This document shows, one piece after another, positions 14,033 through 35,051 of a DNA stretch of 64,000 bases. The translations under genes and the position numbers were made by a program. The stretch's first letter is position 1, and each line of letters opens with the position of its first letter. Source of the stretch: Micropruina sonneratiae (GTDB lineage Bacteria; Actinomycetota; Actinomycetes; Propionibacteriales; Propionibacteriaceae). The notes below the pieces were generated by a model that saw only the letters and a list, made by a program, of their open reading frames with translations, had not been told where the DNA came from and did no database searches. The stretch lies in contig NZ_JAPDHX010000005.1 of NCBI RefSeq assembly GCF_025972045.1, forward strand, positions 124,001-188,000, written 5' to 3'.

Positions 14033-15829
14033 ATGGGTGACGAACCCAGGGTGCTCGGGGGCCGCTACGAATTGGGTAGTCCGCTGGGCCGAGGGGGCAT
14101 GGCGCAGGTGCGCCGCGCCCGCGACACCAGGCTGGGCCGGCAGGTGGCGGTGAAGCTGCTGCGCACCGACCTGGCCGGCGACCCCACCTTCCAGGCCCGG
14201 TTCCGGCGCGAGGCGCAGGCCTCGGCCGGGCTCAACCACCCCAACATCGTCGCCGTCTACGACACCGGCGAGGAGACCGACTCCGAGACCGGGGTCTCGG
14301 TGCCGTACATCGTGATGGAGCTCGTCGAGGGGCACACGCTGCGCGAGCTGCTGCGCGACGGGCGCAAGATCCTGCCCGACCGCGCCCTGGAGTTCACCGC
14401 CGGGGTGCTGGACGCCCTGGCCTACTCGCACCGGGCCGGCATCGTGCACCGCGACATCAAGCCGGCCAACGTGATGCTGACCAACAGCGGCCGGGTCAAG
14501 GTGATGGACTTCGGCATCGCCCGCGCGGTGGCCGACACCTCCGCCACCATGACGCAGACCGCCGCGGTGATCGGCACCGCGCAGTACCTCTCCCCCGAGC
14601 AGGCCCGCGGCGAGACGGTCGATGCCCGCTCGGACATCTACTCGGCCGGCTGCCTGCTGTACGAACTGCTGGTCGGGCATCCGCCGTTCCGCGGCGATTC
14701 GCCGGTCTCGGTGGCCTACCAGCACGTCCGGGAGAATCCGGTGCCGCCTGGCCAACTCGACCCGATGGTGTCCGACGACATGGACGCCATCGTGCTGAAG
14801 GCGCTGGCCAAGGACCCCGCTGACCGGTACCAGTCGGCGTCCGAGATGCGCGACGACATCAACCGGCTGCTGAACGGGCAGGCCGTGCACGCCGTCACTC
14901 CGACGGCCGCGACCGTGCCCGCGTCCGCCGCGGCCGCCACCCGGGTGCTGCCCAGCGCACCCGTCCAGCCTGCCACTGCCGCGACCGGGACCCTCGAGGA
15001 GACCGGGTCGACGACGCCGCAGCGGGCGGTGGAGGATCCCTCCTCTGCGAAACGCCGGGGCTGGGTGTGGGGACTGGTCGCCTTCCTGGTCGTGGTCGCG
15101 CTGGGGGTGGGCACCTACCTGGTGATGAACCCCGGCACCCGGGTCGAGACGGTTGCCGTCCCGAACGTGACCGACCGCAGCCGCGACCTGGCCGAGTCGA
15201 TGCTCACCGAGGCCGGCCTGCTGGTCGATGTCGAAGAGGTCGCCGGCCCCGACGACGCCACCGTCGGCAAGGTGATCGGTCAGGACCCGATCGCCGGGGT
15301 GAACGTCGAGAAGGGCTCCACGGTCAGCATCCAGGTCAACGTCGGCCCCAAGAAGGCGACGATTCCCACCGATCTGGTCGGCAAGACCGCCAAGGCCGCC
15401 GAGACCGCCCTGACGGACCTCGGGTTCACCAACATCGACCGCGAGGAGGACCCACGGGCCACCTCGGCCAAGGCGAACTCGGTGACCAGCGTCAACCCGA
15501 CCGGCGGGGTCACGGTGCCGCTGGACACCCAGATCACGATCTTCTACGCCCCGGGCACCGGAACCGTCCCCAACTTCTACGGCCAGACGAAGGCGGCCGC
15601 CCAGGCGCAGGCCGAGCGGGCCGGCTTCACCGAGGTGACGTTCTCCGAGGAGGAGACCACCGAACTACCGGCCGGTCAGGTGTTCAAGCAGTCGCCGGCC
15701 TCGGGGGAGACCGCCAAGTTCAGCGCCACGATCAAGCTGGTGCTGGCCAAGGCCCCCGAGCCCGACCCGACGCCCACACCGACGCCGACCGAGACCTCCG
15801 AGTCGCCCGAGCCCGAACCGACAGGCTGA
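14033..15829 (+). CDS. pknB: PknB: PASTA-domain Ser/Thr protein kinase
   Basis: The 598-residue receptor kinase senses muropeptides or lipid II. The kinase domain covers residues 12-275, with the glycine loop GRGGMAQV, catalytic Lys41, HRDIKPAN (Asp141), DFG (Asp159), an activation loop with several Thr (TSATMTQT), and SPEQARG. A juxtamembrane Thr/Ala-rich linker leads to one transmembrane helix near 343-364. Three PASTA repeats follow outside, then a Pro/Glu/Thr tail. An AGGAAGGGA ribosome site precedes the ATG. It is the last gene of the wall operon, and no separate PknA-type kinase accompanies it, unlike the mycobacterial arrangement. Confidence 0.95.
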   Translation: MGDEPRVLGGRYELGSPLGRGGMAQVRRARDTRLGRQVAVKLLRTDLAGDPTFQARFRREAQASAGLNHPNIVAVYDTGEETDSETGVSVPYIVMELVEGHTLRELLRDGRKILPDRALEFTAGVLDALAYSHRAGIVHRDIKPANVMLTNSGRVKVMDFGIARAVADTSATMTQTAAVIGTAQYLSPEQARGETVDARSDIYSAGCLLYELLVGHPPFRGDSPVSVAYQHVRENPVPPGQLDPMVSDDMDAIVLKALAKDPADRYQSASEMRDDINRLLNGQAVHAVTPTAATVPASAAAATRVLPSAPVQPATAATGTLEETGSTTPQRAVEDPSSAKRRGWVWGLVAFLVVVALGVGTYLVMNPGTRVETVAVPNVTDRSRDLAESMLTEAGLLVDVEEVAGPDDATVGKVIGQDPIAGVNVEKGSTVSIQVNVGPKKATIPTDLVGKTAKAAETALTDLGFTNIDREEDPRATSAKANSVTSVNPTGGVTVPLDTQITIFYAPGTGTVPNFYGQTKAAAQAQAERAGFTEVTFSEEETTELPAGQVFKQSPASGETAKFSATIKLVLAKAPEPDPTPTPTPTETSESPEPEPTG

Positions 15830-23868: not shown

Positions 23869-24068
23869 CGGGCGATTGTATCGGCGGCCCGCGGAGGGTC
23901 TCGCCGCGTACGTGGGGCGCGGGCGGCCCGGGATGATGACAGTGACGTGATCGCAGCCGTCACCGGGCTGAGCCGCTCCGCTGTCCGTCGGCTGCAGGCG
24001 TCCACAGGAGCGGTGCGGTACTGAGGGTGGCTTGAAATGAAACCGTCCCCATTTCAGGCCACGAGTCC
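23869..24068. other. lysS upstream region
   Basis: About 200 bp between the lysS start and the ABC-F stop on the same strand. It contains the REP-like element R1 next to the ABC-F stop. No small gene or leader structure that I can support. Confidence 0.5.
24029..24060 (-). repeat. 32-bp REP-like palindrome, copy R1
   Basis: The sequence begins GGCTTGAAATG and ends CATTTCAGGCC, an 11-bp inverted repeat with one mismatch around AAACCGTCCC. It belongs to the family R1-R5 in this window (consensus arms GGCCTGAAA/TTTCAGGCC, asymmetric centre GGGGACGGTTCC). It lies 9 bp beyond the ABC-F stop. Confidence 0.9.
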
Positions 24069-25809: not shown

Positions 25810-25841
25810 GGCCTGAAATGGGGACGGTTCCTTTTCAGGCC
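25810..25841 (+). repeat. 32-bp REP-like palindrome, copy R2
   Basis: A perfect 9-bp inverted repeat GGCCTGAAA / TTTCAGGCC encloses TGGGGACGGTTCCT. It is in inverted orientation to R1 (24029) and R3 (25966) and lies 88 bp upstream of the ABC-F start. Confidence 0.9.
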
Positions 25842-25965: not shown

Positions 25966-25986
25966 GGAACCGTCCCATTTCAGACC
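25966..25986 (-). repeat. Partial REP-like element, copy R3
   Basis: Reads GGAACCGTCCCATTTCAGAC plus one base, matching one arm and the centre of the R1/R5 orientation, with one C missing from the CCCC centre and one arm substitution. The opposite arm is absent. Confidence 0.75.
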
Positions 25987-32685: not shown

Positions 32686-33444
32686 ATGCCGTCCATCGAC
32701 CTCAACGCCGACCTGGGCGAGTCCTTCGGCTCCTGGCGGCTGGGCGACGACGAGGCCATGCTCGAGCTCGTCACCAGCGCCAACGTGGCCTGCGGCTTCC
32801 ACGCCGGCGACCCGCTCACCCTGCAGCGCACCTGCGCGCTCGCCGCAGCCCGCGGCGTCCGGGTCGGGGCGCAGGTGTCCTACCGCGACCTGGCCGGATT
32901 CGGACGCCGCTTCCTCGACTGCTCCGTCGACGAGTTGCGCGCCGACGTTCTCTACCAGATCGGGGCGCTGCAGGCGATGTGCCTGGCGGCCGGGACGTCG
33001 GTGGCCTACGTCAAGCCGCACGGCGCCCTGTACAACACGGTGGTGCACCACGAGCAGCACGCTCGGGCGGTCGTGGCCGCGGTCACCGACTTCGACCCGG
33101 GCCTGCCGATCCTCGGACTGCCCGGCGCCGTGGTGCTCGGGGTGGCCGCCGAGGCGGGGCTGCGCACGGTCACCGAGGCGTTCGTCGACCGCGGCTACAC
33201 CCCGCAGGGCACGCTGGTGAAGCGCGGGACGCCGGGCGACCTGATCCACGACGCCGAGGTGGCCGCTACCCGGGTGCTGCGGATGGTGACCGACGGCGTG
33301 GTCACCGCCATCGACGGTAGTGAGGTGCCGATGCGGGCCGAGTCGCTGTGCACCCACGGCGATTCGCCGGGTGCGGTGGCGATGGCGGCCCGGGTGCGCG
33401 AGGTGTTGCTCGGCGCCGGCGTCGAGCTGCGGGCGTTCAGCTGA
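32686..33444 (+). CDS. pxpA: 5-oxoprolinase subunit A (LamB/YcsF family)
   Basis: The 252-residue protein carries the LamB/YcsF motifs [22 protein letters not shown] and [10 protein letters not shown]. PxpA with PxpB and PxpC forms the ATP-dependent prokaryotic 5-oxoprolinase, which opens 5-oxoproline (pyroglutamate) to glutamate. Its stop overlaps the next gene's start (TGATG), so production is coupled to PxpBC. Confidence 0.95.
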
Positions 33445-35051
33445 TGGAGGGCAGGCTGCTGCCCTGCGGCGAGGCCGCGGTGCTGGTCGAGCTCGACTCC
33501 CTGGACGCCGTGCTCACGCTGCAGTCGGCGCTCGCCGAGGCGTCCGACGAGCCGGGGTGGTCGGCCGTGATCGACGTCGTGCCGGCGGCGACGACGGTGC
33601 TGGTCGGCGTCGACGACCCGGCGGCGCTGACGGCTCTGCGTGAGCGGTTGACGCAGCTGCTGACCCGGCTCGACGTCGCACTCGTCGGCGAGACCGGTGG
33701 CGAGCTGGTCGAGATCGACGTCGTCTACGACGGCGAGGACCTCGACGAGGTGGCCCGGCTGACCGGGCTCTCGGCCCGCGAGGTGATCGAGGCGCACACC
33801 GGCTCCGATTGGACGGTCGCCTTCGGCGGCTTCGCACCCGGCTTCAGCTATCTCGTCGGCGGCGACCCTCGGCTCGAGGTGCCCCGCCGTGCGGAGCCGC
33901 GCACCAGCGTCCCGGCCGGCTCGGTCGGCCTCGCGGGCAGCTTCAGCGGCATCTACCCGCGCTCGTCCCCCGGCGGCTGGCAGTTGATCGGGCGCACCGA
34001 CGCGGTCCTGTTCGACGTCGACCGTGATCCGCCGGCCCTGCTGCGGCCCGGACGCCGGGTGCGGTTCCGGGCGGTCGACGCCGGGGTGGCGGAAGGCGTG
34101 GCCTGTAAGGGGGACGGTTCCATCACAGGCCAGACCCCCACAACCGCCGTGGCCCAAAAAGGAACCGTCCCCATTTCAGGCCGGGAAGCCCTCACCGTCA
34201 CCGCGACCGGGCCGCTGGTGATCGTCGTGGACGCCGGACGCCCGGGCCTGGCGTCCACGGGAGTGAGCCGGTCGGGGGCCGCCGACCGGGGCGCCTACGC
34301 ACTGGCGAACCGGCTGGTCGGCAATCCCGCCGGCACCCCCGCCCTCGAGGTCGTCTTCGGCGGGTTGGGCGTCCGTGCGGACAGCACCTGCCTCGTCGCC
34401 GTCACCGGTGCCGACTGCGCCCCGCTGATCGACGGGCGTCCCGCCACCCACAACGGGCCGGTGTACCTGCGCGAGGGCCAGGAGCTCACCCTGTCGACCC
34501 CCGCCGCTGGGCTGCGCAGCTACGTGGCCGTCGCGGGCGGGCTGGACGTCGGCGCCACCCTGGGCTCGGCGTCCACCGACACCCTCTCCGGGCTGGGTCC
34601 GGCGAAGCTCCGCCCCGGCGACCGGATCGGCCTGCACAGCCCGCGGGCGCCGCGGTTCGCCGACGTCGACCTCGTCCCGGCCGGCCCGCTCGCCGGCGCC
34701 GTCCTCACCCTCGACGTGCTGCCCGGCCCGCGCACCGGCTGGCTCGCCGACCCCGACGCGCTGACCCGCACCACCTGGAAGGTGGCGGCGCAGAGCGACC
34801 GGGTCGGCGTCCGGCTCGAGGGCGACCCGCTGGCCCGGCACGCCGACGTCGCCGAGCGCGAACTGCCCTCGGAACCGATGGTCCGCGGCTCGATCCAGGT
34901 GCCGCCGGACGGGCGTCCGGTGATCTTCGGGGCCGACCATCCGGTGACTGGCGGCTACCCAGTGGTCGGGGTGCTGACCGAGGCCGCCAGCGACGCCCTG
35001 GCGCAGGCCCGGCCCGGCCAGCAGATCGTGCTTCGCCCGGCCGGCCGCTGA
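33444..35051 (+). CDS. 5-oxoprolinase subunits B and C fused (KipI-KipA type), with REP-derived linker
   Basis: The 535-residue protein joins a PxpB/KipI-like domain (residues 1-215, with [14 protein letters not shown] and PAGSVGLAG) to a PxpC/KipA-like domain (about 247-535, with [19 protein letters not shown]). Both are needed with PxpA for ATP-dependent cleavage of 5-oxoproline. Fusions of B and C are known as urea-amidolyase-like proteins. The linker between domains (codons from about 34100 to 34182) is made by two inverted copies of the 32-bp REP-like element, translated without a stop as [20 protein letters not shown] and following residues. This appears tolerated because it falls at a domain boundary. 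Confidence 0.93.
34100..34182. repeat. Inverted pair of 32-bp REP-like elements (R4, R5) inside pxpBC
   Basis: R4 (34100-34131) has arms GGCCTGT/ACAGGCC and centre GGGGACGGTTCC. R5 (34151-34182) is in opposite orientation with GGAACCGTCCCC and the arm TTTCAGGCC. A 19-bp spacer separates them. The whole stretch stays in frame within the coding sequence. Confidence 0.9.

Follow-up and report, generated by a model that had tools for sequence, protein, structure and literature searches.

Two inverted 32-bp palindromes lie in frame within the 5-oxoprolinase gene pxpBC of Micropruina sonneratiae, at the joint between the two domains of the encoded protein. This raises the question of what kind of element the palindromes belong to, and whether they made the joint or entered one that already existed. 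We addressed it in a stretch of 64,000 nucleotides (contig NZ_JAPDHX010000005.1, positions 124,001 to 188,000), here called the window, to which plain positions refer, in the genome from which it comes and in the genomes of relatives.

Results

A REP pair within the pxpBC coding sequence

The pxpBC fusion gene occupies positions 33444..35051 of the forward strand and encodes 535 residues from an ATG at 33444. This start was set within an open frame that the ORF listing places at 33348-35051 of the same strand, and it overlaps the stop codon of the pxpA-like gene (LamB_YcsF; 32686..33444, forward strand), which lies directly 5′ with a one-base overlap. The frame runs stop-free through both palindromes, R4 on the forward strand (34100..34131; 27/32 identities to the family consensus) and R5 on the reverse strand (34151..34182; 30/32), and through the spacer at 34132..34150, whose counterparts in other pairs differ in length and sequence. 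Pfam assigned residues 4-200 to a PxpB-like CT_C_D domain and residues 273-530 to a PxpC-like CT_A_B domain, and R4 and R5 are read in frame between the two. The codons that they contribute (34098..34181, forward strand; 84 nt) specify 28 linker residues, 219-246. A sequence-only reading of the window had described just this: a REP-like pair of inverted 32-bp elements, in frame in pxpBC at the PxpB/PxpC domain boundary, adding about 28 residues without a stop. Since the strict pair measures 83 bp, an insertion that kept the frame must have taken in at least one further base. No target-site duplication was seen by eye at the pair.

The two 33-nt arms of the pair (34100-34132 and 34150-34182) form an inverted repeat with 79% complementarity and a gap of 17 nt. 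When 34099-34182 was folded as single-stranded DNA, a z-score of −5.7 was obtained, and none of 200 shuffles did as well. An AlphaFold2 model of PxpBC, computed from an alignment of 44 fused proteins (that of the window and those of 43 of the 68 listed loci), reached a mean pLDDT of 90.5, with values below 50 at residues 224-235 and a coil at 211-248; a second, weaker loop was found at 401-420 (pLDDT 66). As modelled, the linker is disordered between two confident domains.

The palindrome family and its chance controls

Aligned copies gave GGCCTGAAATGGGGACGGTTCC(T/A)TTTCAGGCC as the consensus of the 32-bp element, which begins and ends with GGCC. The window contains 7 instances of the core GGGGACGGTTCC with at most one mismatch, where 0.93 would be expected; 0 of 100 shuffles reached 7. 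Across the 3.5-Mb genome, exact matches to the 11-base core GGGACGGTTCC number 54, and those to its reversed control 0. A BLAST query of 83 bases, made up of the pair with R4 replaced by the consensus, returned 95 matches, palindromes being counted on both strands. A scan of 51 sources, namely the window and 50 stretches around core or BLAST matches, yielded 49 copies with at least 22 of 32 identities; some of the 54 genomic cores lack the arms and fall outside these 49. The motif thus recurs in the stretches examined. GGGGACGGTTC is present in 35 of the 49 copies, and 6 carry the variant GGGGAC(T/A)GTCCCC.

A perfect consensus copy lies in the window at 25810..25841 (forward strand), where the test described below shows no open coding frame, and 125 bases downstream of it a degenerate core, TGGGACGGTTCC (25966..25977, reverse strand), may be its partner. 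Another copy, with 29/32 identities (24029..24060, reverse strand), begins 11 nt after the end of a coding-like frame on its own strand. The core at 15560 was left out of the family, its palindromic arms being absent by eye.

Copies were scored as intragenic when the frame was open and coding by codon usage on both sides; the codon-usage score was derived from 28 ORFs in the window and applied without gene calls. By this test 46 of the 49 copies failed; the three that passed are R4, R5 and a variant copy at C13:217908. Among 16 neighbouring pairs at most 120 bp apart, 12 are arranged + then −, 2 − then + and 2 − then −. The family therefore resembles REPINs, as an extract of PMC3116915 describes them, in being a dispersed short palindrome mostly outside genes and in forming inverted doublets able to fold into a long hairpin (12 of the 16 pairs, with the z of the window pair given above).

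Association of the core with Y1 transposase genes

A search of the window's genome for Y1_Tnp (PF01797) found none, and the same search was positive in 5 of 14 control genomes. Among 197 genomes of the bacterial family, AATGGGGACGGTTCC is present in 18, which belong to 2 of the 29 genera, and 19 contain Y1_Tnp; both occur in 14, the core alone in 4 and Y1 alone in 5. The Fisher p for this co-occurrence is 3e-14, uncorrected for common descent, and a single genus (g9) accounts for 14 of the 18 genomes with the core. Weighing against a link with RAYTs are the core-bearing genomes in which Y1 was not found (G000, which is that of the window, G001, G133 and G140) and the 5 with Y1 and no core.

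Cores also cluster at the Y1 genes. Exact cores number 50 in 13 of 30 Y1 loci (96 kb). The reversed core has 0 matches in these loci, and a control set of 80 loci (736 kb) contains 0 exact cores. When one mismatch was allowed, 94 cores were found in 20 of the 30 loci, against 1 for the reversed core and 11 in 11 of the 80 control loci. The reversed core is the better control, since the 736 kb come mostly from other bacterial families. At several Y1 loci, cores stand on both sides of the gene in opposite orientation, so that in relatives the core, with other arms than in the window, flanks putative RAYT genes. The exact core is absent from 17 of the 30 loci, and the arms around it vary among loci and differ from those in the window. 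The genes were called by Y1_Tnp and may be RAYTs or of IS200 type.

On these grounds the element is best read as being of RAYT/REPIN type, and it was probably moved by a RAYT that the genome would since have lost. It shares with the REPIN/RAYT systems of the PMC3116915 extract the clustering of its core around Y1 transposase genes, here in relatives, and differs from those described there in its core GGGGACGGTTCC, in its actinobacterial host, in having a copy that is intragenic and in frame, and in that no RAYT was found in the host genome.

Different repeats in orthologous linkers

The nearest PxpBC orthologues are 65-70% identical, and no strain-level empty site for the insert was found at that distance; a wider contig scan for relatives, which may omit records near the window's genome, gave at most 54% identity. 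In all five other genus members searched pxpB and pxpC are fused, with linkers that differ from the window's; the G002 sequence has ambiguous bases and a very short linker. Linkers cut from 91 fused loci, a few of them fetched twice, vary greatly in length and sequence, and the core is present in one of the 91, the window's own. Among these loci no distant orthologue carries the window's linker. Some fused orthologues have repeat-free linkers; contrary to the proposal of the sequence-only reading, the palindrome thus did not give rise to the linker but enlarged or partly replaced one.

Dispersed repeats of other kinds were newly seen in the same PxpBC linker of G003, G004, G019 and, as a weaker case, G005. 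Searched against its own genome, the G003 linker on contig C197 gave 62 matches, and the G019 linker likewise gave 48; both counts include the linker itself. For G004 a joined search gave 58 matches, at least 41 of them non-self rows within the range of its own linker. The G005 linker gave 37 matches; at least 8 non-self rows, with identities of 75-89%, lie within the range of this linker, which makes it the weaker case. Among the matches listed, the G001 linker has one weak match in its own range and the G032 linker matches only itself in its own genome. Twelve further family linkers, not picked for repeats, all match only themselves in their own genomes, and two weak extra rows match the linkers of other genomes. 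Dispersed repeats are thus present in 5 of 19 family linkers tested (G000, G003-C197, G004, G005 and G019), which is not an unbiased rate because the linkers beyond the unpicked 12 were chosen partly for their repeat-like look. In the window's genus, with G002 and a second G001 copy left out, 4 of 6 linkers bear repeats, from 4 of 5 genomes. Three linkers were hand-picked outside the family: L124 has 52 matches in its own genome, including itself and at least 3 to another linker, L141 is marginal with two short matches, and L104 has 3 matches, none in its own range among the matches listed.

The linker repeats of G003, G019 and the window are plainly different sequences, and by eye the G004 repeat seems akin to that of G005. 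Under codon shuffling, the longest perfect inverted repeat of the window linker and of the G003 linker was reached by 0 of 100 shuffles. Folding energies under the same shuffling failed to split repeat-bearing linkers from the others (z of −1.9 for the window, −1.6 for G003 and +1.6 for G019).

By eye, the G003 repeat begins CCGTCATCCCGG. That linker (L089) also holds four tandem PPDSSR units beside the palindrome, so that tandem and palindromic repeats occur together. Repeats of the G003-linker type have 48 matches in the window's genome, and of 13 loci examined 1 passes the coding-frame test. A palindrome of this type, followed by tandem DGESG-type residues, was also observed inside a kinase-like ORF (L226:858-2036; G000:C1:664727), between HADLHGGN and DFDD motifs; motifs and kinship were judged by eye.

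Reading frame and stop codons of the elements

For R4 and R5 alike the reading offset is 1, the frame in which the consensus element contains TGA. At this offset 12 of 49 copies are open in the forward and 16 of 49 in the reverse reading, and each of the other four readings is open in 42 to 47; a typical copy would therefore have truncated PxpBC. Where the consensus has TGA, R4 reads TGT and R5 reads CAA, both of them sense codons. Either the arms arrived stop-free, or the TGA was lost later.

Conceivably, the pair originally stood between two unfused genes, pxpB and pxpC, or its TGA stops interrupted an existing fusion, and the genes were joined when TGT and CAA replaced these stops. It is in the spirit of such a history that the frame used is the one with TGA, that R5 departs from the consensus at two positions, both inside the would-be TGA codon, and that R4 departs there too. 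Family copies can indeed end genes, as the TGA of the first arm is the stop codon of ORFs at C13:346339 and C12:195977 (L083:110-1546 and L073:1503-2432), and split pxpB and pxpC genes are present elsewhere in the family and order. We nevertheless consider this course of events unlikely. The fused orthologues of the five other genus members make the fusion probably older than the insert, and stop-free arms are also present in copies outside genes. One arm at C1:1007541 reads GGCCCA like that of R5, so a stop-free arrival is possible.

A second alternative is that the linker was recruited for a function in domain spacing, in translational pausing or as an mRNA hairpin. The strong hairpin that the 84 nt form as single-stranded DNA (z of −5.7) would suit such a role, as would a complementary change in both arms of R4, A to T at position 7 with T to A at position 26. 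The orthologous linkers, however, vary greatly, the segment is modelled as disordered, and the tests run here gave no sign of constraint, which leaves recruitment very improbable. Finally, chance resemblance or an assembly artefact, to which the divergence of one member of the pair (27/32) might point, can be dismissed almost entirely in view of the shuffle and reversed-pattern controls, the open frame with coding score on both sides of the pair and the two intact flanking domains.

A second intragenic copy in LigD

The variant copy at C13:217908 (L081:1509) is the sole other intragenic copy among the 49. It is read in frame within the gene of a LigD-like protein, between the LigD_Prim-Pol domain (41-299) and the 3′-phosphoesterase domain (363-440), numbered from the stop-to-stop ORF. 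With the LigD of the window's genome, the orthologues in G001 and G005 share 85% identity, the one in G002 75% and the one in G004 80-86% in two pieces; in G003 the search gave distant matches only. None of the LigD linkers of G001, G002, G004 and G005 contains the element. The repeat in the G005 PxpBC linker has a copy inside the G005 LigD match (G005:C1:2775109-2775142), and a row of the G004 linker repeat (G004:C174:37444-37504) adjoins the G004 LigD match, each seen as a single row. Together these observations suggest that the uptake of repeats by linkers is more general in the window's genus.

The LigD linkers of G004 (L217) and G005 (L214) themselves look repeat-rich, with residues of the VSTSST and PVELVE type, again with single rows as support.

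Discussion

With a probability of roughly 0.8, we conclude that pxpB and pxpC were already fused through a flexible linker when a REPIN entered that linker, stayed in frame and came to supply 28 residues modelled as disordered. In this explanation the REPIN, two inverted REP palindromes, would have reached the linker in this lineage through a RAYT-type Y1 transposase acting in trans. The insert would have persisted because it introduced neither a stop nor a frameshift and because additional residues are tolerated in the linker. The linker is presumably translated in the cell, and the 28 added residues probably have little effect on catalysis. Since some relatives hold quite different repeats at the same joint, the joint looks like a tolerated landing place, and the PxpBC linker may be permissive for mobile DNA.

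Such insertions have precedents. The sections of PMC3733652 consulted report intragenic REPs in several bacterial species, so that the earlier description of the phenomenon as rare outside Rickettsia was too strong. According to the same sections, REP dimers inside ORFs encode 20-30 residues, some REPs supply stop codons, different REPs occur at about the same recB site in two Xanthomonas species, and flexible linkers are proposed as tolerant sites. The present family shares with these GTAG/CGTC REPs the dimers within ORFs, the supply of stops, a proposed tolerance in flexible linkers and the occurrence of different repeats at about one site. It differs, as far as those sections go, in that the host is a metabolic fusion enzyme and in that four further genomes of the bacterial family carry other repeats at the same linker. 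Measured against these precedents, the pxpBC pair is a known kind of event, and what is unusual is its clear repetition at one linker.

The likeness to Rickettsia palindromic elements (RPEs) drawn in the sequence-only reading holds in part. As with RPEs, which PMC3733652 also mentions, a palindrome lies in frame in an ORF and adds residues. Unlike RPEs, nearly all copies here lie outside open coding frames and an association with Y1 genes is seen. We do not file the pair as an RPE; with its core clustering at Y1 genes, the element type is corrected to RAYT/REPIN. No paper was found for the core string. A search on REPs with in-frame insertion and linkers gave nothing relevant by title or opening of the abstract among the best 12 of 101 matches, and one on RAYTs in actinobacteria returned unrelated work only.

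The proposal in the consulted sections of PMC3733652, that REPs in genes survive by landing in flexible linkers, thereby gains a concrete and testable case. One orthologous linker that holds different repeats in different lineages amounts to a natural experiment on how mobile DNA becomes a source of new peptide sequence within proteins. It is possible, and we put it forward tentatively, that in this actinobacterial genus flexible linkers between the domains of multidomain proteins, PxpBC and LigD among them, have repeatedly been rebuilt from unrelated mobile palindromes, and that their turnover may proceed largely by the insertion of repeats rather than by point mutation.
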